Positions 502-21,568 of a stretch of DNA of 55,890 nt are shown in pieces; position 1 is the stretch's first letter; each line of letters opens with the position of its first letter. Source of the stretch: Hyphomicrobiales bacterium (lineage in GTDB: Bacteria; Pseudomonadota; Alphaproteobacteria; Rhizobiales; Xanthobacteraceae); the NCBI GenBank assembly GCA_017305715.1, contig JAFKKG010000043.1, forward strand, positions 1 through 55,890, read 5' to 3'. Under the pieces are notes generated by a model that was not told the origin of the DNA, did not search any database, and saw nothing but the letters and a program-made list of their open reading frames with translations. The translations under genes and the position numbers were made by a program.

Positions 502-562
502 CATTGCATTTTTGAGAGCTTCGTGCTGACAAGCATTCCTCGTTCGATCCACGGATTTCAGA

Positions 563-1219
563 ATGACCTACGTGCAATATGGGTGCGGGCATAGTGCGCC
601 CGAAGGTTGGTTAAGCTACGACGCATCGTTCACGTTGCGTGTAGAACGCTTTTCGGTTATGGGCCAATTCGTCAAGAGGAACGCGCAGCGATTTCCGGAC
701 AATGTCATCTTCGGCGATATCGTCCGAGGCTTGCCGGTCCCCGACGGTTCGGCGGATGGGGTCTACGCCTCGCATGTTCTGGAGCATCTCTCTCGCGCGT
801 CGATGCTCGTCGCTTTGCAGAATACCTATCGAATACTTCGTCCAAACGGCATCTTTCGCTTGATCGTACCGGATCTCGAGGCGAGGGCACGCCGCTATAT
901 AGCCGAACTCGAAGCAGCGCTACCCGATGCCAACGATCGGCTCCTTCGGTCAAGCTACCTTGGCGTCGAAGCCGATCCAAAGGGCTTGCTTGGGGTTGCC
1001 TCCGAGATGCTCGGACGCAACAAGCATCTCTGGATGTGGGACTTTCCGGCCATCTCGGCGGTATTGGCGTCCACCGGGTTTACCGCGATCCGACGCTGCG
1101 AGATCGGGGATAGCGGTGACCCTGCATTTGCTGCTGTAGAGCAGCGTGACCGGTTTTTTGACGGGCCAACCGGCATTCGTGAACTGGCGGTCCACTGCCA
1201 GCGCCCAGCCAGCCGCTGA
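563..1219 (+). CDS. Class I SAM-dependent methyltransferase
   Basis: A 218-residue protein of the Methyltransf_11 type found in polysaccharide loci. The N-terminus begins directly at the SAM-binding region (YGCGHSAPEGW, residues 6-16), followed by the conserved ASHVLEHLSR (69-78) and ILRPNGIFRLIVPDL (91-105), which correspond to motifs II/III of this family. The acceptor is probably a sugar or glycolipid intermediate, inferred only from location. It points toward the nonulosonate operon and is separated from its last gene by 139 bp (convergent). The upstream ribosome-binding site is weak (ACGGA), but no better start keeps the glycine-rich motif intact. Confidence 0.75.
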   Translation: MTYVQYGCGHSAPEGWLSYDASFTLRVERFSVMGQFVKRNAQRFPDNVIFGDIVRGLPVPDGSADGVYASHVLEHLSRASMLVALQNTYRILRPNGIFRLIVPDLEARARRYIAELEAALPDANDRLLRSSYLGVEADPKGLLGVASEMLGRNKHLWMWDFPAISAVLASTGFTAIRRCEIGDSGDPAFAAVEQRDRFFDGPTGIRELAVHCQRPASR

Positions 1220-1358
1220 GTTGCGAGAAACCCTGAAGCAGGCGCTGGGCCGTGAGCAAGCCGATGGCATGAGAAGACCATCAAGCAAGCAATTCCACGG
1301 CATAATCTTGAAGGGATCGTATCGCTGGCTTCGGCTGTTCATGGCTGGTGACCTGCCG

Positions 1359-2288
1359 TCAATCACTTGAACCGGCAGTCGTTGAAGTTTGATCTCGAAA
1401 GAGAGATTCCAGGGTCACCCGGGGAAACTCATCCAGTTCCCCGCCCGCCGTGGCGTTGAATATGGCGATTTGGTTTGCAGCCGCTATCTGTCGCAAATTG
1501 CGATACTGACTCCACAATGCGGCCAGGCCCTGCAGTTCATCGTGCCAGCCGCCACGGAGCTTGCCGTGTTCGTCGGTCGATACATCTTTTCCGCGCAGGA
1601 CGGTGGGTTCATAGAAATACTTGTATTCGCCGGAACGAAAATGATCGTGGTCGGCGCCCAGGAGATAAATCCTGTCGTGCCCCATGTACATACTGATCAG
1701 TGCAGCCATGATAGGCACTGACTGTGCCCCGGGCATCTCTCCGGCAGCATCTGGCAACGCGTCGGGGGGATACATCGAAAATGGCCCGGCCAGGTCAACG
1801 TATCGGACATCGCGGCCAGGAAAGAGATTCTCTTCGCGGACCAGGGCTCTTTCGGTGTGGTTCAGAAACAAGGTGACGGCACCACCCAGGCGCTCGTGCA
1901 TCTCGCGGAACCATACGATGACGTCAGCGCGGGTCATCAGCGTATAAGTGATTTGCGGCACGCAATGATAGGCTGGCGCGATTTCAGCATAGTCCGGGTG
2001 AAGATAGCCGCTGGAGACCGAGAAGACTATTTCACCCTTGAGGGGTCGGATGTCCTGCCGCTTGACGCTCGGTCCGTTGCACAAAATGAAGCAACGCTTG
2101 CCCGCGTGAATGTTTTGCAGGTCCACGTTGCGCGCCGTGAGCGCGAGAATTCGGGCTCGCTCCTCGCGTGCCGGGCGCATGCGCTCTTCTTCCAGGCGCG
2201 CCCGTTCGCGCTGCTCCGGTATGATGTACATATGCTTGTAAAGGCCGTACGGCAGCAAGGCGCGAAACGTGCGGCCAAGGAGCGTCAT
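1359..2288 (-). CDS. DUF115/Maf-like or GT42-like protein, candidate nonulosonate transferase
   Basis: A 309-residue cytoplasmic protein. It has a charged N-terminal helix (residues 25-50), then FILCNGPSVKRQDI (67-80) and IYLLGADHDHF (207-217). The NGPS and LGADH/SGID-type signatures are shared by the DUF115 domain of flagellin-glycosylating Maf proteins and by GT42 sialyltransferases of the Cst-II type (family knowledge). It is much shorter than Maf (>600 residues) and close in size to GT42 enzymes (~290). It is the last gene of the operon that makes a NeuB-type sugar acid, 12 bp after the PIG-L gene, which fits transfer of the CMP-activated product to a glycan or protein. Acceptor unknown. 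Confidence 0.65.
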   Translation of the reverse strand: MTLLGRTFRALLPYGLYKHMYIIPEQRERARLEEERMRPAREERARILALTARNVDLQNIHAGKRCFILCNGPSVKRQDIRPLKGEIVFSVSSGYLHPDYAEIAPAYHCVPQITYTLMTRADVIVWFREMHERLGGAVTLFLNHTERALVREENLFPGRDVRYVDLAGPFSMYPPDALPDAAGEMPGAQSVPIMAALISMYMGHDRIYLLGADHDHFRSGEYKYFYEPTVLRGKDVSTDEHGKLRGGWHDELQGLAALWSQYRNLRQIAAANQIAIFNATAGGELDEFPRVTLESLFRDQTSTTAGSSD

Positions 2289-2300
2289 CTGCGGGATCTC

Positions 2301-2930
2301 TCACTCAATCCACTTCAGTACCTGAAAGACTTCGGCATAACGGCAACCGATGCGTTGGCCGGCGTTTTCAGCCTCGTTCTCGAAGAAGGAAAGCCATTTC
2401 TTGCCGGTACGATTGACCTCGGAAGCATGCGCCATGATCGCGTCGCGCTTCGTCGCCCAGGTGCTCGTTATGTCGACGTAGTAGTTGCCGTGAAACTCCA
2501 TCGGTGAATGATACCAGTTGCTGCGGTACATCAGGAGGCGCGGGACATGACGGCTGCTATGCAGCGAGGCGCGACCGACGGCCTGATGGTCATGATGAAC
2601 GTCGCCAATCCAGTGGGTGTAGACCAGATCGATCTTGTGATCCTCGATGATGCGTAGGATCTGGATATTGAGAGGATCCACGAACTCGACCTCAAGGGTC
2701 TTGAACTCGCCGCAGATCAGGTGTTCGACACCAAGCGTTCGCATGGCGGCTTCACCCTCGGCCTGGGCGATCTCGTTGGATCGGACCTCGCTGTTCCGGT
2801 GGTTGGAAAACCCGGAAACGGTGGCGACATAAACGACCACCTTGTCGCCCTTGGCGACGTGCCTGGCGAGGGCCCCACCGCAACCCAATTCCACGTCATC
2901 GAAATGTGCGCCGATGGCCAATACGTTCAT
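2301..2930 (-). CDS. PIG-L/LmbE family N-deacetylase
   Basis: A 209-residue member of the zinc-dependent PIG-L family, which removes N-acetyl groups from sugar conjugates. The metal-binding AHFDDVELGCGG (residues 8-19; family pattern HxDD/PDD) and the distal HHDHQAVGR (112-120; family HxxH) are both intact, so it is likely active. It overlaps the upstream WbqC gene by four bases (ATGA). Pairing with WbqC in a nonulosonate operon suggests removal or remodelling of an N-acyl group on the sugar or sugar acid. The substrate cannot be read from the sequence. Confidence 0.85.
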   Translation of the reverse strand: MNVLAIGAHFDDVELGCGGALARHVAKGDKVVVYVATVSGFSNHRNSEVRSNEIAQAEGEAAMRTLGVEHLICGEFKTLEVEFVDPLNIQILRIIEDHKIDLVYTHWIGDVHHDHQAVGRASLHSSRHVPRLLMYRSNWYHSPMEFHGNYYVDITSTWATKRDAIMAHASEVNRTGKKWLSFFENEAENAGQRIGCRYAEVFQVLKWIE

Positions 2931-3628
2931 TCAGATTTCCTCAGGATGTCGCGCGAGCGGACGATGCCGCAATTGAACAGCAGGTCGATGCTGCTCAGAT
3001 ATGGAATGAAATCGCCGTGCAGCTGGGGGTATACCGGATGAAGAAATTCCTGCCAAGTTACTTTGATTCCTGCCGTCTCGAAGGGCTCGGGACGGAAATA
3101 AGCACGCGCACCGGTGCCGGAGAGGTAGTGATTTGCATGAACGGTCCTGAGGATATCGACAAGCAGTTCGTTGCTCCGACCGGTCGCCATGAGGTCGCTG
3201 GCGCGGATGATCTCGATGCGGATATCGAAAAGCTCCAGCAGCAGTTCGATGGAGGCGCGATTGAAGTCAGCCAGCAAGCCGCAGGGGCGGGTGTATAGCG
3301 CCTGCACCCGCGGATAGATCTCGCCAAAGAATGGGGCTTGTCGGTAGTTTTCCTGAAGGATGTTGAGGTGATTGTTTCGCCAGTCCACGGTCTCGGAGAG
3401 CTCGATCTGGTTGATCGGCGTGTCTCGTGCGGCAGCTTTCACGCTGATGGTAATCCAGCGTTCGCCTTTCGGTGTCTTGATCTTGTCGCGGTTGGTCCAG
3501 CTGCGGCTTGTCGAATTGACGTATTGAGCGTTGTCCAGCAGCACGATCACATCGGCATTCAGGAGGCGATCGAAAAATCCCAGATAGGGCAGAAAATCGG
3601 GCTGATGAATGACGGCCGTGCGGTTCAT
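2927..3628 (-). CDS. WbqC-like family protein
   Basis: A 233-residue protein matching the WbqC family (PF08889) throughout: IHQPDFLPYLGFFDRLL near the N-terminus (residues 7-23), DNAQYVNSTSRSWTNRDKI (32-50) and a C-terminal FRPEPFE/YPQLHGDF pair. WbqC proteins recur in O-antigen and nonulosonate clusters. Their reaction is not firmly established, and a role in acylating or modifying the sugar is a common proposal. It overlaps the PseG-like gene upstream and the PIG-L gene downstream by four bases each, so the three are almost certainly translated together. Confidence 0.88.
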   Translation of the reverse strand: MNRTAVIHQPDFLPYLGFFDRLLNADVIVLLDNAQYVNSTSRSWTNRDKIKTPKGERWITISVKAAARDTPINQIELSETVDWRNNHLNILQENYRQAPFFGEIYPRVQALYTRPCGLLADFNRASIELLLELFDIRIEIIRASDLMATGRSNELLVDILRTVHANHYLSGTGARAYFRPEPFETAGIKVTWQEFLHPVYPQLHGDFIPYLSSIDLLFNCGIVRSRDILRKSE

Positions 3629-4572
3629 GCGAGCTCCAATAGCAGCTGACAGACCCGTTCTGCGCCATGTAGTGGTATTCGTGCCAACCCTGCTGAACTC
3701 ATTGCCGTGACGTCGCGCGGTATCGCAAGGGCGCTCTCATCCAGATTGGAGTGATGTCCCGCGTAGCGCGCGGCCCCCAGTTTGGCAAGGTGCCGTGCTG
3801 GCGGTACTTCAAACCATTCGTTGGCGATTGCAATGACCGGCAGCCCCGAAGCGGCGGCTTCGAAGGCGGTAATGCCGCCTCCAGTGATGGACAAATCGTG
3901 GCGGTTCATTTCCTCGATCAGGGATGGGACGCCGATCTTGAGGTCGAAATCCTCGGGGAGTTCGGCGTCGAGCGCCGTACGGTGCTGGAAGCCCGGGCCG
4001 ATGATGACGGTGGCGTTTCGGATTTGCTTTCGCAACAACGCTACGGCCCTGACCGTTACGCCGTAGGTATCGCTCCCACCCAGGGTTATCATGGCACTGC
4101 GAAGCTCCGTTCGCTGGCGGCGCCAACGGGCTATCTCGGGATTCAGGATCAGGTAGTCGAGGCCATGGAGGACGCGGTTTCCCTCCAGCCGTTCTCCGGG
4201 GTCCAGGGCGAGAGCCGCGATATGGAGATCAGCGAGCTGCGCACCCGTGCCTCTGTCATCAAACGTGACCAGCGGGATGCCGGCCTCGCTGATGGTGCGC
4301 GCTTGGGAGAGATCTGTATCGAGGCGGTCGTTGACCCATACTTGCACCCGGTGGCGGCGGATCGTGTCCGGCGCCCAATGCTCGATGCGCGTCAGGTCGA
4401 CCACTTCGAATGTCAATCCGTCCCGACGCAATAGTTCGAGCGCCGGCGGATGGTCGTTGATCAGAAGGACGAAGGGTACTTGGCGCGCCCGAAGCAGTAG
4501 CGCGAGATTGCGCATGCGGAACAAGTGACCCATCCCGCGCGCATGGGAGCTTTCTAGGCAAATTGCGAACAC
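3625..4572 (-). CDS. PseG/SpsG-type nucleotide-sugar hydrolase
   Basis: A 315-residue GT-B-fold protein. The N-terminal GMGHLFRMRNLA (residues 13-24) contains the GxGHxxR signature with the catalytic histidine of PseG. The C-terminal GGGITAFEAAASG (231-243) is the nucleotide-binding loop. PseG releases the nucleotide from an NDP-2,4-diacylamino-trideoxyhexose to give the free sugar that the NeuB-family synthase condenses with PEP. Here it follows the NeuB-type and SpsF-type genes, the SpsE-F-G order of Bacillus spore polysaccharide loci. The start at 4572 overlaps the upstream gene by 19 bases. The exact NDP-sugar is unknown. Confidence 0.82.
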   Translation of the reverse strand: MFAICLESSHARGMGHLFRMRNLALLLRARQVPFVLLINDHPPALELLRRDGLTFEVVDLTRIEHWAPDTIRRHRVQVWVNDRLDTDLSQARTISEAGIPLVTFDDRGTGAQLADLHIAALALDPGERLEGNRVLHGLDYLILNPEIARWRRQRTELRSAMITLGGSDTYGVTVRAVALLRKQIRNATVIIGPGFQHRTALDAELPEDFDLKIGVPSLIEEMNRHDLSITGGGITAFEAAASGLPVIAIANEWFEVPPARHLAKLGAARYAGHHSNLDESALAIPRDVTAMSSAGLARIPLHGAERVCQLLLELA

Positions 4573-5246
4573 AGCGCGACCGCCTGTTCAGTTGTTACAT
4601 GATCGCTGCCGGCACGTTCGGCGATGAAGCATGCCCGGCGGAAGTCGGTTTCATCGTCGACGGTAAGGCGCACCTGCGGATGGTTCTTTTCGGCCGCAAT
4701 CTCCAATTCCACAGTCTTGAATCGCTCGGGGTGCTCAAGCATGAATTCATCGACATGTTCGAAATGGTGCGGGGCGTGGGAGGCTTCAGCGCACTGGGCC
4801 AGCGCGCTGAACCGAAAGATTTCTGCGCCGACACCGACGGGCAATTGAGAGAAGGAGTGGCTGAAGTCGGCTTGCGTCGATAGATGCAAATCGATCAGGC
4901 GGTCCAGTTCTTCGACGTCGACAAACGGGTTGTCGGCAGTGAGACGAATTACCTGCTCAAACCCGTAGGTCATGGCGCATTGGTAGTACCGGTTCAGCAC
5001 GTTGTTCTCGCTGCCGCGAAATATCTTGACCTCGCGTTGCCCGCAGTAGCTAACGATTGCATCGTCGCGCGCCTCCCCCGTAGTCGCAACGACGACAGTG
5101 GCACGGTGTCGGAGGTGACCGAGCCGATCCAGAATTCGGCCGAGCAGAGGCGTGCCGTTGATCGGGCGCAGCACCTTTCCCGGCAGCCGTGAGGACCCCA
5201 TGCGGGCCTGGATGATGATGCCCAAGCTTATTGCAGCACCTCCCAC
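4554..5246 (-). CDS. SpsF/NeuA-type cytidylyltransferase
   Basis: A 230-residue nucleotidyltransferase. The N-terminal IIQARMGSSRLPGKVL (residues 11-26) is the nucleotide-binding loop of the CMP-NeuAc synthetase/SpsF family, and LTADNPFVD (102-110) is the metal-binding region. Expected reaction: CTP plus the nonulosonic acid gives the CMP-sugar used by the transferase. It overlaps the NeuB-type gene by 19 bases and the PseG-type gene by 19 bases. The ATG at 5246 adds a few residues before the conserved strand; a slightly later start cannot be excluded. Confidence 0.82.
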   Translation of the reverse strand: MGGAAISLGIIIQARMGSSRLPGKVLRPINGTPLLGRILDRLGHLRHRATVVVATTGEARDDAIVSYCGQREVKIFRGSENNVLNRYYQCAMTYGFEQVIRLTADNPFVDVEELDRLIDLHLSTQADFSHSFSQLPVGVGAEIFRFSALAQCAEASHAPHHFEHVDEFMLEHPERFKTVELEIAAEKNHPQVRLTVDDETDFRRACFIAERAGSDHVTTEQAVALCSQFA

Positions 5247-6244
5247 GTCAGCACGTCGTCGGCTTCGAGTACCTGACGGGGGCGTCGTCCGATCACGTCC
5301 TGCAAATGCTTGGGCGCGATGCCATAGCCCGGCCGCTTGACCGTCAGATGGTCAGCCGTCAGCGGCTCGCCGGCCGCTGCGGCGCGGGCCAGGACGATGC
5401 TCTTGCGGTTGTTGGTGCGCGTCTTGGCTTCGCTCGCCGCCGGATGCTTGCGGCCGTCACCGCGCATGACTTCGAAGCTGCGCACGGCTTCGACGATGGC
5501 CTTCATCTCGTCCGGATCGGCCGACAGCATGTGGTCGGGCCCTGGCGCTTGCTTGTCCCAGGTGAAGTGCTTTTCCAGAATCCGCGCGCCCATCGCCGCG
5601 GCGCAAATGCACGCGATCGGCCCGATCGTGTGGTCGGAGTAACCGACCGCCAGATCGGGAAACTCCCGCATCATCGCCTGCATCGCGCCCAAATTGACGT
5701 GTTCGGGGTGCGTCGGATAGCTGGTCACCGCGTGCAACAGCATAAGCTGCTTCACGCCTTCCGAGCGTATCGCTGCGACCGACTCCTGGACTTCCTCCAT
5801 CGTGCACATGCCGGTCGAGAGGATCATCGGTTTGCCGGTACGGGCCACAACACGCAGGAAGGGAAGGTTGACGGCATCATCCGAACCGATCTTGTGCGCC
5901 CCGACACCCAAATTCTCCAGCATATCGACATCGGATTCATGCGACGGGGTGGAGAACCAGTCCAATCCGTGTCGGGCAGCGTAATCGAACACGGCCTTAT
6001 GAAGGTCGAGATCGATTTCATATTGCCTGAACAGTTCATGCTGGGAGACCAGGCCGGTGTTTTCCATATCGAACACCGCCTTGCGGCTGGCAACCGTGTC
6101 AGCCCTGTACGTCTGCAGCTTGACTGCATCCGCGCCGGAAGCGGCGGCGGCGTCGATCAGGGTTCGGGCGTCTTCGAAGCGGGTAAAGTTACCACCGATC
6201 TCGGCGATGATGTAGCAGCGATCGGGTTTGAAATTGCGGAACAT
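5228..6244 (-). CDS. NeuB-family nonulosonate synthase (SpsE/PseI/LegI type)
   Basis: A 338-residue protein, the usual length for the family. The TIM-barrel part carries IIAEIGGNF (residues 12-20), DAVKLQTYRAD (40-50), WFSTPSHESDVD and KIGSDDAVNLPFL. The C-terminal SAF/antifreeze-like domain begins near residue 276 (KSIVLARAAAAGEPL, then RPGYGIAP). These enzymes condense PEP with a free amino-hexose to make a nine-carbon sugar acid in the cytoplasm. The gene is flanked by the radical SAM gene (12 bp upstream) and the cytidylyltransferase (19-base overlap). Whether the product is pseudaminic, legionaminic or another acid cannot be decided by eye. Confidence 0.88.
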   Translation of the reverse strand: MFRNFKPDRCYIIAEIGGNFTRFEDARTLIDAAAASGADAVKLQTYRADTVASRKAVFDMENTGLVSQHELFRQYEIDLDLHKAVFDYAARHGLDWFSTPSHESDVDMLENLGVGAHKIGSDDAVNLPFLRVVARTGKPMILSTGMCTMEEVQESVAAIRSEGVKQLMLLHAVTSYPTHPEHVNLGAMQAMMREFPDLAVGYSDHTIGPIACICAAAMGARILEKHFTWDKQAPGPDHMLSADPDEMKAIVEAVRSFEVMRGDGRKHPAASEAKTRTNNRKSIVLARAAAAGEPLTADHLTVKRPGYGIAPKHLQDVIGRRPRQVLEADDVLTWEVLQ

Positions 6245-6256
6245 TTTCGCGCAAGC

Positions 6257-7327
6257 CTATTTGCCAATCAGCTGAGTGCGGCGCGTATAGTTGCGCACGA
6301 TGAAGCTGCGCTCACCAACTTGGGCCACATCGTCCTGGGTTTTGCGCGGCAGGTAACACTTGCGGCAGACCGGGCTGTTCATGAAGCCGCGTGGTTGGAG
6401 GTGCATGTCGCGCACCGCCTGCATTTTGGGGCCGTGCCAGATCTCATGCACGGTTTGTGTCCTGGCGTCGCCGATGACTTCCCGATTTTCTTCGTCGTTT
6501 GAGCACTTCATCACCAGGCCGTCAGCGCCGATGACCAGGCGTTGATACTGCTGCGGGCAGGTGAATTCGTCGACGTATTCGATGTCTGTGTCGTTTCCCA
6601 GATAGTCGATCAGGGGATTGAAGGCGACAAGGTCGGCGAGGGGCGCGAAAGTGTCGTAATAGCCTTGCGGATCGTTTTCGATCGCTGGCCAGATGCCCTG
6701 CACCTTGATCACCGGTTTGACCAGTCCGTGCTCGGCTTTGTAATCCTTGATGGCCTTGAGCTTGCCCAGCAGATCGTCGAACTTCAACGGATGTCGGATG
6801 CGCTCGTAAGATTCCTTGAGGCCGTCGATGGAAATCGTGATCCAGTCGATGCCCGCCTCCTGAACCTTCTTGAAATAGTCCAGGCTCAGGCGCCCACCGT
6901 GAGTCAGCGTGGATATCTCCTTGATGCCACCCTTCTTGGCATAGCGCACGGCTTCGATAAATCCGGGATGCACGGTGGATTCGCCACGCAGCGACAGACG
7001 CAGGGCGGGCACCTTGCCGCCAATCTCGTCGATGATGCGCTTGAACATCTCGATATCCATGACTTTCGCATCGACGTGTTTGCGAAATTCCGCCGAGATC
7101 GTGTAACACATCGGGCAACGCAGGTTGCACACCGAGGAAAGCTCGAGATCGACCAGTAATGGATAGTCCGACACCGTCTGCGTCTTGGCGTTTTCCGCCC
7201 AGTCGTGACGATACCGGGCATAGCCTTCGGACCACCCTTGAGACAGGTTCTGATTGAACGACGCCTCTCGCTCGGGCGTGTCCATCGAATAGTTGCCCTT
7301 GTTGATCGGGACGTTGCGCTGTTTCAT
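6257..7327 (-). CDS. Radical SAM/SPASM-like protein in nonulosonate operon
   Basis: A 356-residue protein with the radical SAM cluster motif CNLRCPMC (C67, C71, C74) after the strand PLLVDLELSSV. The barrel continues with LRLSLRGESTVHPG and WITISIDGL. C-terminal cysteines at 257, 275, 321 and 324 suggest a SPASM-like auxiliary Fe-S site. Radical SAM enzymes of this shape carry out dehydrogenation, epimerisation or C-C chemistry. The start codon overlaps the stop of the SDR gene (ATGA), and the NeuB-family gene follows 12 bp later, so it is embedded in the pathway. The substrate is unknown; modification of the sugar before PEP condensation is an inference from position. Confidence 0.85.
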   Translation of the reverse strand: MKQRNVPINKGNYSMDTPEREASFNQNLSQGWSEGYARYRHDWAENAKTQTVSDYPLLVDLELSSVCNLRCPMCYTISAEFRKHVDAKVMDIEMFKRIIDEIGGKVPALRLSLRGESTVHPGFIEAVRYAKKGGIKEISTLTHGGRLSLDYFKKVQEAGIDWITISIDGLKESYERIRHPLKFDDLLGKLKAIKDYKAEHGLVKPVIKVQGIWPAIENDPQGYYDTFAPLADLVAFNPLIDYLGNDTDIEYVDEFTCPQQYQRLVIGADGLVMKCSNDEENREVIGDARTQTVHEIWHGPKMQAVRDMHLQPRGFMNSPVCRKCYLPRKTQDDVAQVGERSFIVRNYTRRTQLIGK

Positions 7328-8187
7328 GTAGCCTCTTGCATTGCCTTTATCGTCGCTCGGATTCCATCGCGGAAGCTATGCTTCGGGGACCACCCCAGTT
7401 CGCTCTGGGCCCGGGCGATATCGGCGCGTGTATCGTCGATTTCCTGCACGCGTGTCACCTGCAGGCTTCGCACCTGCTTGGATGTGGCTGCCTCAGCCTG
7501 CGCCGTGGCGATCGCCTCAGCGACGCTCAGGGAAACGCCCGTTCCCGCATTATAGACGTTATAGCCGGCGGGCGCGTGCATGGTGGCGAGGAACAGCTCA
7601 ACCAAGTCCGCTATATAGAGGAAGTCCCGCTTCGGGGCTAGGTCCCTGACCTCGATGTGGTCGGACTTCAGGACCTGGGTTAGAATGGATGGAATAAGAA
7701 AATCTCCACCCTGTCCGGGGCCGTAGACGTTGAACGGTCGGACCACCGTAACCGGCAGACCGTGGACCGCTGCGTAGAACTGGCAGGCCTGTTCGGCGAG
7801 CGCCTTGCTGAGTGCATAGGGATTGTTCGGAGCGAGCGGGTGGTCCTCCCGGATCGGCTGCGTTTTGGGCACGCCATAGAGATAGGCGCTGATATGCGTC
7901 AGCGGGATGTTCTGTGCCCGGCAGAACTCCAGCACATTGAGCGTGCCGCCGGTGTTGACCCGGTGGAACTCTGCCGGATGGTCCCAGCTTTGCGGCACGA
8001 AGGTAAGCGCCGCCAGGTGGAAAACGCGGTCGATCCTGGTTCCCTGGTGCGGGCGCAGAGTGGCAGGATCGGCGATGTCGCCATCGCTCCGGCCCAGTCG
8101 GATGATCGTGTCACCGCGCGTATGCAGGCGGGTGGTCAAGGCGCGACCCAGGAAACCTCCGGCACCGGTGATCAGGAAAGTGCTCAC
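7324..8187 (-). CDS. NAD-dependent epimerase/dehydratase (extended SDR)
   Basis: A 287-residue extended short-chain dehydrogenase. It has the Rossmann GAGGFLG (residues 8-14), the strand DRVFHLAAL (53-61) and the catalytic YALSK (Y124, K128). The usual TDE/TSE dehydratase triad is replaced by ISAYLYG (99-105), which argues for an epimerase or reductase acting on a nucleotide sugar rather than a 4,6-dehydratase. It overlaps the nucleotidyltransferase upstream and the radical SAM gene downstream by four bases each. Product not determinable. Confidence 0.82.
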   Translation of the reverse strand: MSTFLITGAGGFLGRALTTRLHTRGDTIIRLGRSDGDIADPATLRPHQGTRIDRVFHLAALTFVPQSWDHPAEFHRVNTGGTLNVLEFCRAQNIPLTHISAYLYGVPKTQPIREDHPLAPNNPYALSKALAEQACQFYAAVHGLPVTVVRPFNVYGPGQGGDFLIPSILTQVLKSDHIEVRDLAPKRDFLYIADLVELFLATMHAPAGYNVYNAGTGVSLSVAEAIATAQAEAATSKQVRSLQVTRVQEIDDTRADIARAQSELGWSPKHSFRDGIRATIKAMQEAT

Positions 8188-8921
8188 ATCCGGTCGGCCA
8201 TGAAACGGGCAGGGTCGCTCTCGTATTCCTCGATGGCTTTCGCGTAGTCATCGGGACGGCCGATGTCCAGCCAATACCCGTCGTGGCGGCGAACATCGGG
8301 CAGGGTGCCCGCTTTGATCAACCGATGCATCAGATGATCGAAGCCGAACGCCACATCCGGCGGGATCATGCCCAGGGCGCGCTGGCTGACCATATAGACG
8401 CCCATGCTCACCTCATATGCGTAACGCGGCTTTTCGCGGAAACCGGTCAGTTGGCCCTGCGTATCCGACTCCAGCACGCCGTAGTCGATCATCTCCTCGC
8501 GTGCGTGCGAGGAGATGGTGAAGATGCCGTCGCGCTGCACGTGCAGATCGTAAAATTCGCCAAAATCCAGATCCGTCAAGATGTCGCCATTCATCACCAG
8601 GAAATGGGCCGGAAGATCGCGCACCAGTTTCAATGGCGCCATCGTGCTCAAGGGCTTGTCCTCGAGCGAGTAGTCGATCCGGAGGCCCCAACGTTCGCCA
8701 TCGCGAAAAAAGGCCTTGATGATCTCTGCCTGGTGGTTCACCGCCATGGTGATGTGGTCAAAGCCGCTCCGCGCCAGTTGCCGGATGATGATCTCCAGGA
8801 TTGGGGTCTCGCCCAGCGGCACCAGGGGCTTGGGAAGCGCGATCGTATAGGGGCGCAGGCGTGTGCCCTTGCCGCCGGCGAGAATGACTGCGCGTTTGTT
8901 CGCCAATGGACGGACCTTCAA
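8184..8921 (-). CDS. Sugar-1-phosphate nucleotidyltransferase (LegE/PtmE- or ManC-like)
   Basis: A 245-residue nucleotidyltransferase. AVILAGGKGTRLRPYT and PKPLVPLG (residues 11-37) form the NTP-binding loop; VMNGDIL binds metal; GFREKP and WLDIGRPDDY are typical of the mannose-1-P guanylyltransferase subgroup. It lacks the CBS domains seen in Campylobacter PtmE and the C-terminal domain of bifunctional ManC. With the LegB-like dehydratase next to it, it probably makes the NDP-hexose that starts the nonulosonate pathway; GDP is the likely nucleotide by analogy with LegE. The start at 8921 is 51 bp after the dehydratase stop. Confidence 0.82.
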   Translation of the reverse strand: MKVRPLANKRAVILAGGKGTRLRPYTIALPKPLVPLGETPILEIIIRQLARSGFDHITMAVNHQAEIIKAFFRDGERWGLRIDYSLEDKPLSTMAPLKLVRDLPAHFLVMNGDILTDLDFGEFYDLHVQRDGIFTISSHAREEMIDYGVLESDTQGQLTGFREKPRYAYEVSMGVYMVSQRALGMIPPDVAFGFDHLMHRLIKAGTLPDVRRHDGYWLDIGRPDDYAKAIEEYESDPARFMADRM

Positions 8922-8972
8922 GACAGCGCGACCTCAGCCCGCGCGACCAAGGGAATACCATAAGGTATTGGG

Positions 8973-9965
8973 CTACACGTTGTAAATCTGGGCCTTGTAG
9001 CGCGCCAGGTTCTCAGGGCGGCCGAACCAGCTGATGGTACGTGTCAGCCCTTCGCGAATGTCGATTTGCGGCTCATACCCGGTCAAGCGGCGGACACGCG
9101 TATTATCGCACCACAGGCGTTCCACCTCGCTGTCCGCCGGGCGGATGCGGGTATCGTCGGACTCGACGGTGATTTGCGAACCCATCAGTTCCTTGATGAG
9201 GGCGACGGTGTCGGCGATCGATATCTCCGAATTGGTGCCCAAATTCACGGTATCGCCAACAGCGGCGTCGCATTCCGCCAGTTCGACGAAGCCGCGACAG
9301 GTATCCTCGACATAGCTGAAGTCACGGGTCGGATGCAGGCTGCCCAATTTGATCGTCGGCCTCCCAGCTGCGATTTGCGTGATCACGGTAGGTATCACCG
9401 CTCGCGCCGATTGGCGGGGTCCATAGGTATTGAAGGGGCGTACGATAGTGACGGGCAGGCCGAAAGCGCTAAAGAAACTGAAGGCGATCGCGTCGGCGCC
9501 GATTTTGGTCGCACTATACGGAGACTGAGCCTGTAGCGGATGTGACTCGTCGATCGGAACGCGCTGCGCCGTTCCATACACCTCGCTGGTAGACGTGTGA
9601 ATGACGCGCGCAACCCCCAGTTCGCGCGCAGCCTGCATCACGTTGAGCGTACCCGTGACGTTGGTCTGGACGTAGCTGTCCGGTGCGACGTAGGAGTAAG
9701 GAATGGCAATCAACGCTGCCAAGTGAAATACCACGTCGCAATCGCGGGCTGCACTCCTGACGAAATTCGGATCGCGTATGTCGCCGCTGACAATCTCGAT
9801 TTGATCGCGGCAGGGCAGGCCTTCCAGCCAACCCCACTGGTTGAACGAGTTGTAAAGGCAGAGCGCGCGGACCTTCGCCCCGCGAGCGACCAGCATTTCC
9901 GCCAAGTGCGATCCAATGAAGCCATCTGCGCCCGTGACCAGCACTTTTCTGCCCGTAATCTTCAT
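8973..9965 (-). CDS. legB: LegB-like NDP-sugar 4,6-dehydratase
   Basis: A 330-residue extended SDR. Motifs are TGADGFIGSH (residues 11-20), VVFHLAALIAIPYSYVAP (78-95), HTSTSEVYGTA (123-133) with a TSE-type catalytic region, and YSATK (Y150, K154). The IAIPYSYVAPDSYVQTN stretch is characteristic of the LegB branch, which removes water from GDP-GlcNAc at C4/C6 in legionaminate synthesis (family knowledge). It sits 13 bp after the acyltransferase gene. The nucleotide and hexose specificity are inferred from the family. The symbol reflects similarity, not a demonstrated role. Confidence 0.75.
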   Translation of the reverse strand: MKITGRKVLVTGADGFIGSHLAEMLVARGAKVRALCLYNSFNQWGWLEGLPCRDQIEIVSGDIRDPNFVRSAARDCDVVFHLAALIAIPYSYVAPDSYVQTNVTGTLNVMQAARELGVARVIHTSTSEVYGTAQRVPIDESHPLQAQSPYSATKIGADAIAFSFFSAFGLPVTIVRPFNTYGPRQSARAVIPTVITQIAAGRPTIKLGSLHPTRDFSYVEDTCRGFVELAECDAAVGDTVNLGTNSEISIADTVALIKELMGSQITVESDDTRIRPADSEVERLWCDNTRVRRLTGYEPQIDIREGLTRTISWFGRPENLARYKAQIYNV

Positions 9966-9978
9966 CGTCTCTTACTCA

Positions 9979-10623
9979 CTATTCGCGGATACGATGCACC
10001 TTTGCCGGCGTGCCGAAGCTGACTGAGCGCTCGGGAAGATCGCCGCGCACCAGCGATTGGGCGCCGACAACCGAGTCGTTGCCGATGCTCGATCCCATCA
10101 TCACCATGACCCCGCTGCCCAACCACACATTGTCGCCGATCCTGACCGGTGCCGCGGACGATTCGGAATGTCTGGTTGGAATCGAGGGATCGTCAGTGCC
10201 ATGGCTTGCGTCGGTGATCTGGACAAATGCCGCGAAAATGCAATTCTTTCCAACATCAAGAGCCGCCAGCGCACCAAGGATATTGTAACTGTTGATATAA
10301 CTTCCATCACCTATTCGGATAGCGCCGCCTTGGACGGTCGAAAGTATCGCGAAGGAACCAATCGCGCAGCGCGCGCCAAGGGAAATATTCCCGTATAAGT
10401 GAGCATACCGGTAGATGCAGCAACCCTCACCGATCAAGATGTTGCCTTCGAGAATGACATTGTCTTCAAGTTTTACCCCGGGGCCGACCTGGACGTCTCC
10501 AGTGATCACAACATTTCGACCGATCCGGCAATCCCTGGGCAGCCGTATTCCGAACAGCAAAAGCAGGCGAAGATGCCTGGCGGCTTGGGCCACAACATCA
10601 GCAATCTTCCCGAAGCTCGTCAT
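9979..10623 (-). CDS. Left-handed beta-helix (hexapeptide) acyltransferase
   Basis: A 214-residue protein made mostly of imperfect hexapeptide repeats ([LIV]-G-x4) from about residue 33 (CRIGRNVVITGDVQVG) to 200. It ends with NVWLGSGVMVMMGSSIG and the typical FGTPAKVHR tail, so it belongs to the WbbJ/LacA-like O- or N-acetyltransferases. Its start overlaps the wzt stop by four bases. It may acetylate the nonulosonate precursor (a LegH/SpsD-like step) or decorate the exported glycan. The sequence does not separate these options. Confidence 0.8.
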   Translation of the reverse strand: MTSFGKIADVVAQAARHLRLLLLFGIRLPRDCRIGRNVVITGDVQVGPGVKLEDNVILEGNILIGEGCCIYRYAHLYGNISLGARCAIGSFAILSTVQGGAIRIGDGSYINSYNILGALAALDVGKNCIFAAFVQITDASHGTDDPSIPTRHSESSAAPVRIGDNVWLGSGVMVMMGSSIGNDSVVGAQSLVRGDLPERSVSFGTPAKVHRIRE

Positions 10624-11921
10624 TTTCGGTCAGTATTGACAAGTTCAGGCTCGGCCTGAACAGTCCAGGGCAATTGCAGCGATAACAACGAACCTTTGCG
10701 TTCAAATCCGAGGAACATCACGATTCCAACGGAATCAACGACGCGGAAGGTAACTCCATCGACGACATCGTAGATGTCGTGTCGACCTCTTGAGATGCCG
10801 ACCCGCAACGCGTACAGGCCTGTGTTGAGTAATCGCGCAGGAATCCGAATGTCAGCTAGGTAAGTGCCGGCGGCGCGTTCTTCCAGGCGCGACATTTCCA
10901 GCTCCGTATCCGAAAGCGAAATGAACGTTTCGCCATTGTCCTCGGACAAAACTTGTAAGCCAACTGTCACGCCGCGCATCGGTTCACGCAAGCGGTATCT
11001 CACTCGCAAGATGATGTCTTGCGTCAGTTCATAGCCTTCGCGTGTTTCCAGATTCGGATCAAGAATGAATACATCTTTGATATAAGCCGGTTTGTCGGGC
11101 GTTGTCGAAGCATCCAGGTGCCAACTTGATCCTCCGTCCACCGAAGCGCTGCGAAGATAGACACGCGTAATGTCGGAACTCGGTCCGTCGGCTATGATTT
11201 TTCCCTTTTCCAGGAATATTGACCTCGCGCACAGATTGTTTACGGCGGTCATGTTGTGACTGACAAACAATACAGTGCGCCCCTCGGACCTCACATCGCG
11301 CATTTTTCCCAGGCATTTTTTTTGAAATGCGTGATCACCGACCGCCAGTACTTCATCGACGATCAGGATTTCCGGCTCCAGATGTGCGGCCACTGCAAAT
11401 GCAAGCCGAACGTACATACCTGAAGAGTATCGTTTCACCGGCGTATCGATGAAGTCATCGATTTCCGCAAAGTCGATAATTTCGTCAAACTTGCGATTTA
11501 TTTCCGCTTTTGTCATCCCGAGAATTGCGCCGTTCAGATAGACATTCTCACGACCGGTTAGCTCTGCATGAAATCCCGTGCCAACCTCAAGCAGACTCGA
11601 TACCCGCCCGCGGATACGAACACTGCCCGCGTTTGGCGCCGCTACCCGAGACAGGATCTTGAGGAGCGTAGATTTACCGGCACCATTCCGTCCGATAAAG
11701 CCGACGGTCTCGCCGGCCTGGACATCAAAGGTGACGTTCTCCAGCGCGTTGAACGTCGTTCCGGCTTTCACGCCGGCCTTGCCGATCTCAAGGTTGGGAT
11801 CTGGCAAGCCTCGTTTGCGCGCCCACCAGCTCTGCAGATCGCGCCTCAATGTGCCGTGATTGATAACGCCGAGTTGGTAGCGTTTGCTGACGGACTCGAC
11901 TGAAATGACAGTTTTGGTCAT
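10620..11921 (-). CDS. wzt: Wzt: ATPase of O-polysaccharide ABC exporter with C-terminal glycan-binding domain
   Basis: A 433-residue protein. The nucleotide-binding domain (residues 1-260) has Walker A FIGRNGAGKST (75-85), signature YSSGMYVRLAFA (165-176), Walker B ILIVDE (185-190) and the switch histidine in FVSHN. The C-terminal ~165 residues (from about 268) form a beta-rich domain like Wzt-C, which in O9a/O12 systems recognises the chemically capped end of the polymer (family knowledge). It pairs with the permease gene 64 bp upstream and exports undecaprenyl-PP-linked glycan across the inner membrane. The adjacent modification genes make a capped glycan plausible. Confidence 0.92.
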   Translation of the reverse strand: MTKTVISVESVSKRYQLGVINHGTLRRDLQSWWARKRGLPDPNLEIGKAGVKAGTTFNALENVTFDVQAGETVGFIGRNGAGKSTLLKILSRVAAPNAGSVRIRGRVSSLLEVGTGFHAELTGRENVYLNGAILGMTKAEINRKFDEIIDFAEIDDFIDTPVKRYSSGMYVRLAFAVAAHLEPEILIVDEVLAVGDHAFQKKCLGKMRDVRSEGRTVLFVSHNMTAVNNLCARSIFLEKGKIIADGPSSDITRVYLRSASVDGGSSWHLDASTTPDKPAYIKDVFILDPNLETREGYELTQDIILRVRYRLREPMRGVTVGLQVLSEDNGETFISLSDTELEMSRLEERAAGTYLADIRIPARLLNTGLYALRVGISRGRHDIYDVVDGVTFRVVDSVGIVMFLGFERKGSLLSLQLPWTVQAEPELVNTDRK

Positions 11922-11985
11922 GGCTTAAGGAGTTTGCGCGAGGGTGATGTCGAATATGTCGCGAACAACGAGGACACTGTCATCG

Positions 11986-12843
11986 TCAGATCGTGTCCAT
12001 GAAGCTGCGTTCGACGCGGGAAAACATTGCCAAGCCCAGGCTGAAGATTAAAGCGGTAGCGACAATGCTGTATATGGCAGGTTCCAAACGCAGGGTTCCG
12101 CTTCCCAAGAGGGCGTATCGAAAGCACTCCACGATTGGCGTCATTGGATTCAAATAGGCGAGCCACAGCCATTTTTCCGGGATTTGAGAAACCGGATATA
12201 CAACGGGGGTTGCATACATCCAGAGTTGCATTCCGTAACCCGTCAGGTAGGCCAAGTCGCGAAATCGAGTCGTCAGTGTCGAGATGATCAGCCCAGCTCC
12301 CAATCCTAATGCCGCGATCTGTATAAGTAGAAAGGGCAGCAGGAGTAGTGCGGCCCCAGGTTGAATGGGCGCTCCTCGAAGACGATAGACAACGACTACC
12401 ACAATGAAGACGACGAATTGTATGCCGAGAACGATGAGATTGCTGATGATCAGCGATACCGGCGTAACCAGACGGGGGAAGTAAACCTTGCTGTACATTC
12501 CGACGTTGGCGGCGAATGTGTCAGATGTCTTGTTCAAGTTGGCCGCAAAATATTGCCAGCACAAAACACCCCCGAAATAAAACAGGAAAGGCGGTATTCC
12601 GTCCGTGGGTATCGAGGCGATCCGCCCGAATACGATCGTGAAGACGATCGTTGTCATCAAGGGTTGAATGACAAACCAAAGCGGCCCTAGTAGTGATTGC
12701 TTGTAGGTGGCAACGGAGTCGCGCCTCACGAAAAGCATAACGAGGTCGCGATATTGCCACAACCCTCGCAGGTCGGGCATATACCAGCCCTGCACGGATT
12801 CAATAACCGTCGTCCATTCTTTCGAATCGTCTGCCTTCGTCAT
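11986..12843 (-). CDS. wzm: Wzm: ABC-2 permease of polysaccharide exporter
   Basis: A 285-residue membrane protein of the ABC-2 family. After an amphipathic N-terminal segment (LRGLWQYRDLVMLFVRRD) come about six hydrophobic stretches, including LLGPLWFVIQPLMTTIVFTI, a VLGIQFVVFIVVVVV helix and YLNPMTPIVECFRYALLG, the canonical Wzm/KpsM landmarks. It partners with Wzt. The base composition of wzm and wzt is visibly more AT-rich than the downstream operon genes, so this exporter pair may have a different history. Confidence 0.92.
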   Translation of the reverse strand: MTKADDSKEWTTVIESVQGWYMPDLRGLWQYRDLVMLFVRRDSVATYKQSLLGPLWFVIQPLMTTIVFTIVFGRIASIPTDGIPPFLFYFGGVLCWQYFAANLNKTSDTFAANVGMYSKVYFPRLVTPVSLIISNLIVLGIQFVVFIVVVVVYRLRGAPIQPGAALLLLPFLLIQIAALGLGAGLIISTLTTRFRDLAYLTGYGMQLWMYATPVVYPVSQIPEKWLWLAYLNPMTPIVECFRYALLGSGTLRLEPAIYSIVATALIFSLGLAMFSRVERSFMDTI

Positions 12844-17586: not shown

Positions 17587-18462
17587 ATGTCCCGCCGGGG
17601 TTTGATTTTGGCAGGCGGTACCGGCTCGCGCCTGTTTCCGATGACCGCGGCAGTGAGCAAGCAGTTGCTGCCGATCTACGACAAGCCGATGATCTATTAC
17701 TCGCTTTCGTCTCTTCTGCTGAGCGATATCAGGGAAATACTCATCATATCCACGCCCCGCGACGTGCCGCTGTTTCGTGATCTGCTCGGCGATGGTTCGA
17801 ATTTCGGCATCCGCCTGGAATACGCCATCCAGGACCGTCCGAACGGATTGGCGGAAGCTTTTCTGATCGGCGAGCGCTTTCTCGACGGCGCGCCCAGCGC
17901 GCTGGTGCTGGGCGACAACGTATTTTACGGCGAGGGATTCTCCGACCATCTGCTCCAGGCCGCCGGCAGGAAAACCGGCGCTACGGTATTCAGCTATCCC
18001 GTCCAGAATCCGCGAGATTTTGGCGTGGTGACCTTCGACGAGAATGGCCGCGCCACCAATATCGAGGAAAAGCCCGACAAGCCAAAATCCAATTCGGCCG
18101 TTGTCGGGCTGTATTTCTACGACGAGCGCGTGGTGGAATTTGCCCGAAAACTGAAGCCCTCGGCGCGCGGCGAACTGGAGATTACGGATCTCAACCGGGT
18201 CTATCTCGATCTGGGCGAGCTGTATGTCGAGAAGTTGGGACGTGGTTTTGCGTGGCTCGACACCGGGACGTGCGCTTCGATGCTGGACGCGACGAATTTT
18301 GTCGCCACCTTGCAACGGCGGCAGGGACTTCGAATTGCCTGTCTTGAGGAAATTGCATTTCGAAAAGGCTGGATCACGAAAGCGCAACTCGTGGCCGGCG
18401 CTGCCCGGTTCAGCAACAGCGAGTACGGCGCTTACCTGCTCCAAGTCCCGCTCTTCGCCTGA
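17587..18462 (+). CDS. rmlA: Glucose-1-phosphate thymidylyltransferase
   Basis: A 291-residue protein of full RmlA length. [16 protein letters not shown] (residues 5-20) and [15 protein letters not shown] (24-38) form the dTTP- and Glc-1-P-binding loops; VLGDNVFYG and [14 protein letters not shown] are strongly conserved RmlA signatures; [13 protein letters not shown] closes the core. It makes dTDP-glucose, the entry to dTDP-6-deoxysugars. It is the first gene of a nine-gene plus-strand block running to 26,997, with GGAGA nine bases before the ATG. No rmlC or rmlD lies in the window, so it most likely feeds the FdtA/FdtB-type branch encoded in the same block. Confidence 0.93.
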
Positions 18463-20452: not shown

Positions 20453-21568
20453 ATGGAAAATCCGCAAACAGTACCGCTCGCCGACCCGCGCCGGGATCTG
20501 GCGAGATACGAAGCCGAGATGATCGATGTCACTCGGCGCGTCATCAATTCGGGCAGCTATATCGGCGGGCCGGAGGTCGACAAGTTCGAGAAGGCCATGG
20601 CCCGGGCGACGGGCGTCGATGCGGCTGCGGGGCTGGGCAGTGGAACCGACGCCCTGATCTTCGCGTTGCAGGCCGCGGGCGTTGGCCGTGGTGATGAGGT
20701 CATTGTGCCCTCACATACCGCCGGTCCCAGCGTCGCCGCGATCCACGCGCTGTTCGCGACGCCGGTTTTCGTCGACGTGGAATACGACACCGCTTGTATT
20801 GACGCCGAACTGGTTGCCGCTGCGATCGGTCCCAGGACAAAGGCGATCCTCGCCGTCCATCTGTACGGGCATCCGGCCCGGCTGGATCTGCTGGCTCGGC
20901 TCGCCGCCGACCGCGCTGTGGTGTTGATCGAGGACTGCGCGCAGGCACAGGGCGCCTTGTTTTCGGGCAAGTCGGTTGGCTCAACCGGAAAGTTCGGATG
21001 CTTCTCGTTCTATCCGACCAAGAATCTCGGAGCTCTCGGCGACGGCGGCGCGGTGACGGGTTCGCAAGCGGGCGTCGATCTCGTGCGCAAGCTGCGGGTC
21101 TATGGATGGAGCACACCGCAATTTGCCGAAATCCCCTATGGTCGTTGTTCGCGTCTTGACGAACTGCAGGCGGGTTATCTGAGTGTGCGGATGCAGGGAT
21201 TGGCCGAGGATGTCGAGGCCCGCCGGAAAGTGGCGCGGGCGTATCGGGAGTTGTTGGCGGGACTGCCGATCGATCTGCCGATAGAGCAGGCGGATTGTCG
21301 ACACGCCTATCATCTGTTCGTTATCAAGTCCGACGCCCGGGATGCGCTCAGGCGGCATCTCGGCGACGCTGGCGTGATGACCGGACTTCATTATCCGTTT
21401 CCCGCGCACGTGCAGCCGGGGCTTTCGACCAACACGCGCACCGCGGGTTCACTGGACGTGACGCTTCGGCTTCAGGAGAGAATATTGAGCCTGCCGATGT
21501 TCGCGACCATCACCGACAATGAGATCGGACGCGTTGCCGACGCCGTGCGCGGCTATTTCCGGAAATAG
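20453..21568 (+). CDS. DegT/DnrJ-family sugar aminotransferase, FdtB/QdtB-like
   Basis: A 371-residue PLP enzyme of usual length. GSGTDALIFAL (residues 62-72) binds phosphate, EDCAQAQGA (160-168) supplies the aspartate that contacts the pyridine nitrogen, and FSFYPTKNLGALGDGGA (184-200) contains the catalytic K190. Adjacent fdtA-type and rmlA genes, and the YGWSTPQFAEIPYGRCSRLDELQA region, indicate 3-amination of dTDP-3-keto-6-deoxyhexose (FdtB/QdtB role). It is the only aminotransferase in the window, so it could alternatively also serve the nonulosonate pathway. Its AGGA ribosome-binding site is rather far upstream (about 15 bases). Confidence 0.82.
   Translation: MENPQTVPLADPRRDLARYEAEMIDVTRRVINSGSYIGGPEVDKFEKAMARATGVDAAAGLGSGTDALIFALQAAGVGRGDEVIVPSHTAGPSVAAIHALFATPVFVDVEYDTACIDAELVAAAIGPRTKAILAVHLYGHPARLDLLARLAADRAVVLIEDCAQAQGALFSGKSVGSTGKFGCFSFYPTKNLGALGDGGAVTGSQAGVDLVRKLRVYGWSTPQFAEIPYGRCSRLDELQAGYLSVRMQGLAEDVEARRKVARAYRELLAGLPIDLPIEQADCRHAYHLFVIKSDARDALRRHLGDAGVMTGLHYPFPAHVQPGLSTNTRTAGSLDVTLRLQERILSLPMFATITDNEIGRVADAVRGYFRK

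Follow-up and report, generated by a model that had tools for sequence, protein, structure and literature searches.

A candidate radical S-adenosylmethionine-dependent route to a one-nitrogen nonulosonic acid in rhizobia and four other phyla

A 55,890-nucleotide stretch of a Hyphomicrobiales bacterium (assembly GCA_017305715.1, contig JAFKKG010000043.1, positions 1 to 55,890, hereafter the window) carries, at positions 1359-10623 of the minus strand, a run of nonulosonate genes that contains no aminotransferase. Judged from these genes, the operon most likely makes a nonulosonate, a sialic-acid-like surface sugar, in which C7 bears oxygen instead of nitrogen. It is probably an undescribed sugar acid, because a reductase and a radical enzyme stand in the place of the usual aminotransferase. 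We give a probability of slightly less than one half (about 0.47) to the full reading, in which a route dependent on a radical S-adenosylmethionine (SAM) enzyme uses this enzyme and a ketoreductase instead of the C4 aminotransferase and the N-acetyltransferase. It would yield, in rhizobia and four other phyla, a new nonulosonic acid with a single nitrogen at C5 that is unmasked by a PIG-L enzyme and re-substituted by a WbqC protein.

All named genes of the run are open reading frames. Together with an adjacent exporter they form a minus-strand train from 12843 to 1359 in the order Wzm, Wzt, hexapeptide acyltransferase, LegB, nucleotidyltransferase, a second short-chain dehydrogenase/reductase (SDR2), radical SAM enzyme, NeuB, SpsF, PseG-like hydrolase, WbqC, PIG-L and a last gene. 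The matches of the operon proteins to Pfam and SDR-family models (SDR, NTP_transferase, Radical_SAM, SPASM, NeuB, CTP_transf_3, WbqC and PIG-L) all lie above the cut-offs. The first-pass annotation, made from the sequence alone, had described a nonulosonate operon lacking an aminotransferase, and this is borne out by the open frames and by the recurrence of the same nine genes in other genomes. Its picture of an overlapping train holds for seven of the 12 junctions (overlaps of 4 or 19 bases), the other five being gaps of 12 to 64 bases, and its gene list, correct for the genes named, passed over the hexapeptide acyltransferase within the span.

The module was compared in 30 loci, comprising the window, two rhizobial plasmids and 27 contigs of a genome collection. 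The plasmids and contigs were found via the radical SAM protein (68-69% and 59-83% identity, respectively), whose presence there is thus by construction. They place the module in Pseudomonadota, Nitrospirota, Chlorobiota, Nitrospinota and Bacteroidota, with many metagenome-assembled genomes (MAGs) among them. The order LegB, nucleotidyltransferase, SDR2, radical SAM, NeuB, SpsF, PseG-like, WbqC and PIG-L was observed in 27 of the 30 loci, which exceeds chance, and in full in four named phyla; one contig (L050) stops inside the module, after SpsF. SDR2 and the radical SAM gene are consecutive core genes in all 30 loci, and PIG-L and WbqC hold their place in 28 and 29, respectively. Some loci have extra genes or gaps between core genes, and the slot between the radical SAM gene and NeuB is variable, being empty or occupied by a hexapeptide acyltransferase, a methyltransferase (by Pfam) or, in one locus, a gene resembling a membrane acyltransferase by eye. 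Core genes aside, no DegT-, LegC-, NeuC-, PtmE- or LegF-like gene lies inside any of the 30 modules. When plasmids were searched for NeuB and PIG-L, nothing above 60% identity came up beyond the same two records. The radical SAM enzyme was matched by its own genome alone, both among 296 genomes of the family (E ≤ 1e-60) and in a sample of 385 genomes of the class (E ≤ 1e-45). A conserved, horizontally spread nonulosonate pathway is part of the best explanation.

The entry enzyme at 8973-9965, annotated at first as a LegB-like dehydratase, can now be named more firmly. It passes the model for LegB (TIGR04180, 513.2 bits, cut-off 475), the 4,6-dehydratase of nucleoside diphosphate (NDP)-N-acetylglucosamine (GlcNAc), and T126-S127-E128, Y150 and K154 are invariant in 30 module copies. 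The sugar-1-phosphate nucleotidyltransferase gene at 8184-8921 (NTP_transferase, 128 bits) is present in 29 of the 30 loci, and its product shares 35% identity over 220 residues with the nucleotidyltransferase part of a PtmE-like protein. SDR2 (7324-8187; SDR-family match), the proposed C4-ketoreductase in the place of LegC, has S100-A101-Y102 where LegB has T126-S127-E128 and thus misses the dehydratase glutamate. It keeps the nucleotide-binding and YxxxK motifs, with Y124 and K128 unchanged across the 19 copies aligned, and the solved structure nearest to it is a GDP-6-deoxy-D-mannose reductase (6x3b, 109 bits). Motifs and nearest structure fit, and do not prove, a ketoreductase.

SDR2 is followed by the radical SAM gene (6257-7327; Pfam Radical_SAM 63 bits, SPASM 43 bits), whose product has a SPASM/twitch-type C-terminus. 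It carries a CxxxCxxC motif and C-terminal auxiliary-cluster cysteines, the cluster roles being assigned by analogy, and C67, C71, C74, C257, C275, C321 and C324 are invariant in 23 aligned copies. Mean column identity was 79% for the radical SAM enzyme, 69% for WbqC and 60% for SDR2 in alignments that took in partly different sets (23 of 30, 22 of 29 and 19 of 30 copies, respectively). In a Foldseek search with a structure model of the radical SAM enzyme (mean predicted local distance difference test, pLDDT, 82.7) the best folds were BtrN (E 2.3e-10) and DesII (4.7e-9), which have the CxxxCxxC motif and four C-terminal cysteines in common with the module enzyme; the latter is only about 15% identical to them and sits in a surface-sugar operon. 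BtrN is a dehydrogenase that oxidises an aminocyclitol alcohol, and DesII is an eliminating enzyme whose substrate is a TDP-4-amino-6-deoxy sugar. Because these two act on an aminocyclitol and a TDP-sugar, action of the module enzyme on an NDP-6-deoxyhexosamine is the favoured guess, and the earlier suggestion that it shapes the acid finds its support in the same modelled fold resemblance. To our knowledge no radical SAM enzyme belongs to a nonulosonate route. A literature search found no paper pairing 'nonulosonic acid' with 'radical SAM', and among the matches listed for 'NeuB' and 'radical SAM' no title was about such an operon.

In the synthase half of the operon, neither NeuB nor the PseG-like hydrolase exceeds the cut-off of a pathway-specific model. 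NeuB (5228-6244; PF03102, 273.5 bits), the predicted phosphoenolpyruvate (PEP)-condensing synthase and the single NeuB match in a genome-wide search, falls short with both synthase models, that for neuraminate (337.3 bits, cut-off 399.65) and that for pseudaminate (281.2 bits, cut-off 340.25). Among control synthases, three linked to LegC reached 451-472 with the neuraminate-type model and one pseudaminate positive example 488.7. It is followed by an SpsF/KdsB-type cytidylyltransferase (4554-5246; CTP_transf_3, 101 bits), proposed to activate the acid with CMP, and by an NDP-sugar hydrolase at 3625-4572. The likeness of the latter to PseG, noted in the first pass, stands, but its score (TIGR03590, 74.1 bits, cut-off 153.55) permits no more than the name PseG/SpsG-like; G13, G15 and H16 are invariant in 29 copies, and just weak glycosyltransferase-like matches were found among PDB sequences. 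No PseB, PseC or PseH was found above cut-off among the operon genes.

Ordinary LegB clusters served as a control. LegB is found above cut-off in 27 of 292 genomes of the window's family, 25 of which also have LegC above cut-off, in 23 cases within 250 bases of LegB. The two LegB-positive genomes without LegC are the window's own and one of the same genus (G228). The cluster of the latter (locus L075, G228:C1:3938000-3957500, about 6700-12600) holds LegF-, LegB-, NeuB-, SDR-, NeuC- and PtmE-like genes and no LegC, the SDR gene sitting between NeuB and the NeuC-like gene; this SDR may stand in for LegC there too, with no radical SAM gene, and the cluster would perhaps reach a similar acid more simply. 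As comparators, 21 of the 26 LegB-positive relatives were used (G086, G153, G242, G265 and G277, of the same genus, were left out), and none of their LegB loci has a radical SAM match. Module LegB proteins are on average 61.3% identical to the comparators and 71.5% among themselves, while for NeuB the values are 39.1% and 74.8%. In a quick tree the module NeuB proteins form one clade (Shimodaira-Hasegawa-like approximate likelihood ratio test 100) next to long branches; the trees left out eight Rhizobium rows. Mainly because of the 61.3% versus 39.1% identities and the LegB model being passed, LegB appears to perform its ordinary reaction and the synthase to be committed to a different sugar. 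Three features, all read from sequence, favour the proposal that the acid lacks the C4-derived amino group: no module copy contains LegC, SDR2 resembles a reductase, and NeuB forms a separate clade.

The two genes at the tail of the core may act on the remaining nitrogen. The PIG-L family N-deacetylase (2301-2930; PF02585, 70 bits) has H9, D11, D12, H112, H113 and H115 invariant in 28 copies, which we take to be the metal site. WbqC (2927-3628; PF08889, 237.4 bits), proposed to substitute the N5 amine, belongs to a family whose Pfam title states no function. Its AlphaFold2 model is confident (mean pLDDT 91.6) and had no PDB match at E ≤ 0.001; the best match (0.007) and other weak ones, among them tyrosyl-tRNA synthetases and a cytidylyltransferase, were discarded as too weak for use. 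PDB sequences gave no match at E ≤ 1, the papers listed for 'WbqC', judged by titles and abstract beginnings, gave no described function, and no paper was found pairing 'WbqC' with 'PIG-L'. WbqC tends to go with amino sugars, since all six viewed of the 14 non-module WbqC records hold an annotated sugar aminotransferase. Two plasmids have WbqC in the vicinity of DegT aminotransferases and of further genes annotated as radical SAM (L098, Solidesulfovibrio, 3857-7696; L100, Streptomyces, 3459-8841), perhaps further radical SAM sugar routes. PIG-L adjoins a formyltransferase-like gene in a locus whose NeuB passes the pseudaminate cut-off (L073), and an annotated pseudaminate cluster on a Mariluticola halotolerans plasmid (L095) combines PIG-L and WbqC with a gene that matches formyltransferases weakly (24.8 bits, cut-off 26.1). 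The pairing in these two clusters is consistent with a nonulosonate that first loses its N-acetyl group and is then acylated again. The L095 cluster (517-7669) has annotated pseB, pseC, pseF and pseG and, in the stretch viewed, no annotated pseH.

Taken together, these enzymes suggest a pathway with LegB entry, reduction of the C4 ketone instead of its amination, and radical tailoring, leading to a 9-deoxy nonulosonate with oxygen at C7; as a whole we regard this scheme as evenly poised between right and wrong. From its family, the nucleotidyltransferase would make NDP-GlcNAc, probably GDP-GlcNAc, which LegB would dehydrate to the 4-keto-6-deoxy sugar. SDR2 would then reduce the C4 ketone to a hydroxyl, replacing both LegC amination and LegH acetylation, and, before or after it, the BtrN/DesII-like enzyme may abstract a hydrogen from the NDP-6-deoxyhexosamine and change the oxidation state or the stereochemistry at an unactivated carbon. 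The PseG/SpsG-like enzyme is expected to hydrolyse the nucleotide, NeuB to condense the sugar with PEP and SpsF to attach CMP. As GlcNAc would be the sole nitrogen source in the module, PIG-L would unmask the nitrogen by removing the GlcNAc-derived N-acetyl group and WbqC would place another group on the N5 amine; for PIG-L, suggested in the first pass as a shaping enzyme, the N5 amide is a likelier site of action than the position without the amino group. The scheme would give a 5-amino-3,5,9-trideoxy-nonulosonate that carries oxygen at C7, formally of the 9-deoxyneuraminic acid type, and the adjacent ATP-binding cassette (ABC) transporter would export it within a surface polysaccharide.

Known pathways share parts of this scheme. 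In the described legionaminate route, LegB acts on NDP-GlcNAc and is followed by LegC, LegH, LegG, LegI and LegF (PMC6137143). With this pathway (Campylobacter jejuni, Legionella, Halorubrum) the module shares the LegB step, a NeuB-family synthase and a cytidylyltransferase, and its nucleotidyltransferase is distantly related to the PtmE domain. It differs in having no internal LegC, NeuC-type LegG, LegF or constant acetyltransferase, in adding SDR2, the radical SAM enzyme, the PseG-like hydrolase, SpsF, WbqC and PIG-L, and in a NeuB of its own clade. Lacking LegC and a synthase above the neuraminate-type cut-off, the module does not qualify as a legionaminate pathway, and its likeness in sequence extends as far as the 4-keto sugar. 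The Bacillus subtilis sps route (SpsM, C, D, G, E, F) has a second half of the same kinds, PseG-like SpsG, NeuB and SpsF, and requires both spsC and spsD (PMC7439481). SpsC and SpsD have no constant counterpart in the module (no DegT inside 30 modules, an acyltransferase in 13 of the 30 loci), the dehydratase is SpsM there and LegB here, and the module adds the radical SAM enzyme, SDR2, WbqC and PIG-L. With the pseudaminate pathway (PseB, C, H, G, I, F) it shares the PseG-like hydrolase, and PIG-L and WbqC also occur in the Mariluticola cluster, but it is without the first three enzymes above cut-off, and its NeuB lies under the PseI cut-off.

Several observations weigh against the one-nitrogen reading. 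It is built on sequence and predicted structure, and the reactions assigned to SDR2 and the radical SAM enzyme derive from distant resemblance; the model of the latter is poor at residues 68-76, in the cluster loop. The NeuB of another genome, beside no module, scores equally low (331.8). The best LegB trees have 6 (quick) or 5 (careful) label changes, with ordinary LegB proteins among those of the module. The module LegB proteins formed one group in 0 of 200 bootstrap trees; starred branches force only 2 changes, and a single module clade was not rejected by the approximately unbiased test on LegB alone (p 0.213). The best NCBIfam model of the nucleotidyltransferase is mannose-1-phosphate guanylyltransferase (133.4 of 440, far below cut-off). 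Two loci depart from the common order, L054 (Chlorobiaceae) without the nucleotidyltransferase and L069 (a Bacteroidetes MAG) without PIG-L.

The remaining adverse observations concern aminotransferases and bear on the possibility that the operon makes ordinary legionaminate or an isomer. An aminotransferase gene located elsewhere would then serve for C4 amination, and further changes to the acid would be made by SDR2 and the radical SAM enzyme. We consider this unlikely. An ordinary LegB is in its favour, as is the production of legionaminate by a PseG-like, NeuB and SpsF half in B. subtilis (PMC7439481). Sub-cut-off matches to the LegC model (E ≤ 1e-60, up to 335 of 420 bits) were found in 20 of 29 module-bearing genomes or records, and in three loci (L045, L046, L061) a DegT gene flanking the module has LegC as its best model (304-337 of 420). 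A PseC above cut-off (570.6 of 423.5) follows the module in L054. Some DegT match, always outside the module, occurs in the stretch examined in 21 of the 30 loci. On the other side, nine of the 30 stretches have no DegT match, PseC is above cut-off in 1 of 30 genomes or records and LegC in 0 of 29, a count drawn from DegT-family proteins alone and from a set with many MAGs and two single plasmid records. A LegC or PseC gene elsewhere that always accompanies the operon, named in the first pass as a refutation, was not seen above cut-off in this set. The window, whose module is most closely related to those of L045 and L046, lacks a flanking LegC-like gene of their kind. In many rhizobia a DegT gene lies upstream, beside genes similar in size to those of RmlA-like and FdtA-like proteins (clusters c17 and c16), and two of these (L051, L068) score 167-168 of 420 with the LegC model.

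In the window's own genome (7.45 Mb in 51 contigs, with a completeness of 100%) there are eight DegT-family matches, two of full length, and a search of these DegT-family aminotransferases gave no LegC or PseC above cut-off. The first of the two, on the plus strand at 20453-21568 (LegC 145.7 of 420, PseC 181.7 of 423.5), was the only aminotransferase in the window that the first-pass annotation could offer to act in trans. It is probably a C3 enzyme (QdtB-like): its best PDB matches are 7b0d (glutamine-scyllo-inositol transaminase), 2oga and QdtB 3frk, the last two presumably C3 transaminases. The same run of genes holds RmlA, from a separate dTDP-sugar route (17587-18462, plus strand; TIGR01207, 455 bits, cut-off 360.65), and an FdtA-like ketoisomerase (21572-21997, plus strand; PF05523, 97.9 bits, cut-off 23) lies next to the aminotransferase. 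Adjacent to the second is a Gfo/Idh oxidoreductase that scores best with the UDP-GlcNAc 3-dehydrogenase model (271 of 450 bits), an arrangement that we assume to supply 2,3-diaminoglucose for lipid A. Both (LegC 142 and 185 of 420 in the genome-wide search; PseC 182 and 233 of 423.5) are best read from sequence as C3 enzymes for other sugars, which disfavours amination in trans in this genome. A trans-acting LegC or PseC above cut-off was rejected by family searches for the own genome, and less firmly for the other module-bearing genomes.

A second alternative, which we hold to be less probable still, assigns diol dehydratase activity to the radical SAM enzyme and makes SDR2 the reductase that works with it, giving an acid that is deoxy at C7 or another position. 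AprD4 and AprD3 are a precedent for such a pair; the unbroken pairing of the two genes in all 30 loci and the presence of DesII among the best folds agree with it. The top fold, however, is that of BtrN, a dehydrogenase, and SDR2 is nearest to a 4-ketoreductase, which is enough for a 7-hydroxy acid. An improbable third option makes the radical SAM enzyme a C2 epimerase that would set the manno configuration in the role of NeuC or LegG, with SDR2 as the 4-reductase. NeuC-like and PtmE-like genes each occur in 19 of the 21 comparator loci (one locus being the source of the queries), whereas no NeuC-like match was found in the 30 module stretches, the window's whole genome not having been searched for NeuC, and a PseG-like hydrolase is present instead. 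Against it, the conserved cysteines of the enzyme are limited to the seven of the presumed clusters, leaving none to return a hydrogen, and SpsG of B. subtilis serves legionaminate with no radical SAM gene among those named (PMC7439481). Finally, a start from GDP-mannose towards a nitrogen-free acid like 9-deoxy-ketodeoxynonulosonic acid (Kdn), with PIG-L and WbqC serving another sugar of the same polymer, is very improbable: the guanylyltransferase match and the nearest structure of SDR2 speak for it, but a PtmE-like protein likewise scores best with that guanylyltransferase model in NCBIfam (137.9 bits), the positions of PIG-L and WbqC are constant across nearly all loci, and LegB passes its model and resembles the LegB proteins of LegC-bearing clusters, whose substrate is NDP-GlcNAc (PMC6137143).

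Around the core lie genes of accessory character. The last gene (1359-2288, minus strand), a possible glycosyltransferase for the acid, has a relative in 23 of the 30 loci. Its first label, DUF115/GT42-like, is weak: the protein matches nothing in Pfam or NCBIfam and nothing convincing among PDB sequences, and two relatives are MptE-like below the cut-off (25.7 and 26.2 of 34.6). The hexapeptide acyltransferase (9979-10623, minus strand; best model WbbJ, an O-acetyltransferase, below cut-off) occurs in the window and 13 of the 30 loci. Its gene immediately precedes LegB in the window, L045 and L046, and elsewhere lies between the radical SAM gene and NeuB or is absent there; it is probably a decorating and not a core enzyme. 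The exporter consists of a Wzt-like ATPase with a Wzt C-terminal domain (10620-11921, minus strand; ABC_tran 80.2 bits, Wzt_C 37.6 bits) and a Wzm-like permease (11986-12843, minus strand; ABC2_membrane, 77.2 bits). The G+C content of these two genes (10620-12843) is 52-53%, compared with 59.4% for 1359-9965 and 62.7% for 24001-55890, and this lower value relative to the neighbouring stretches suggests a patchwork origin of the locus. At 25-501, an open frame encodes a protein with a repeated 35-residue segment; a tandem-repeat scan of positions 1-1300 reported no array. Three other loci contain additional diverged genes of nonulosonate type (NeuB- and SpsF-like in L049, 14455-16053; SpsF-like in L054, 19416-19988, and L069, 14902-15684), probably second clusters, given that the additional SpsF-like gene of L054 comes with PseC.

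Nonulosonates coat bacterial surfaces, and gene content is usually used to predict neuraminate, legionaminate or pseudaminate. Such predictions would misread a LegB-entry module without LegC. The module also offers WbqC a testable position in a pathway. If the one-nitrogen reading is true, the rhizobial acid would be a new candidate surface component met by legume hosts.

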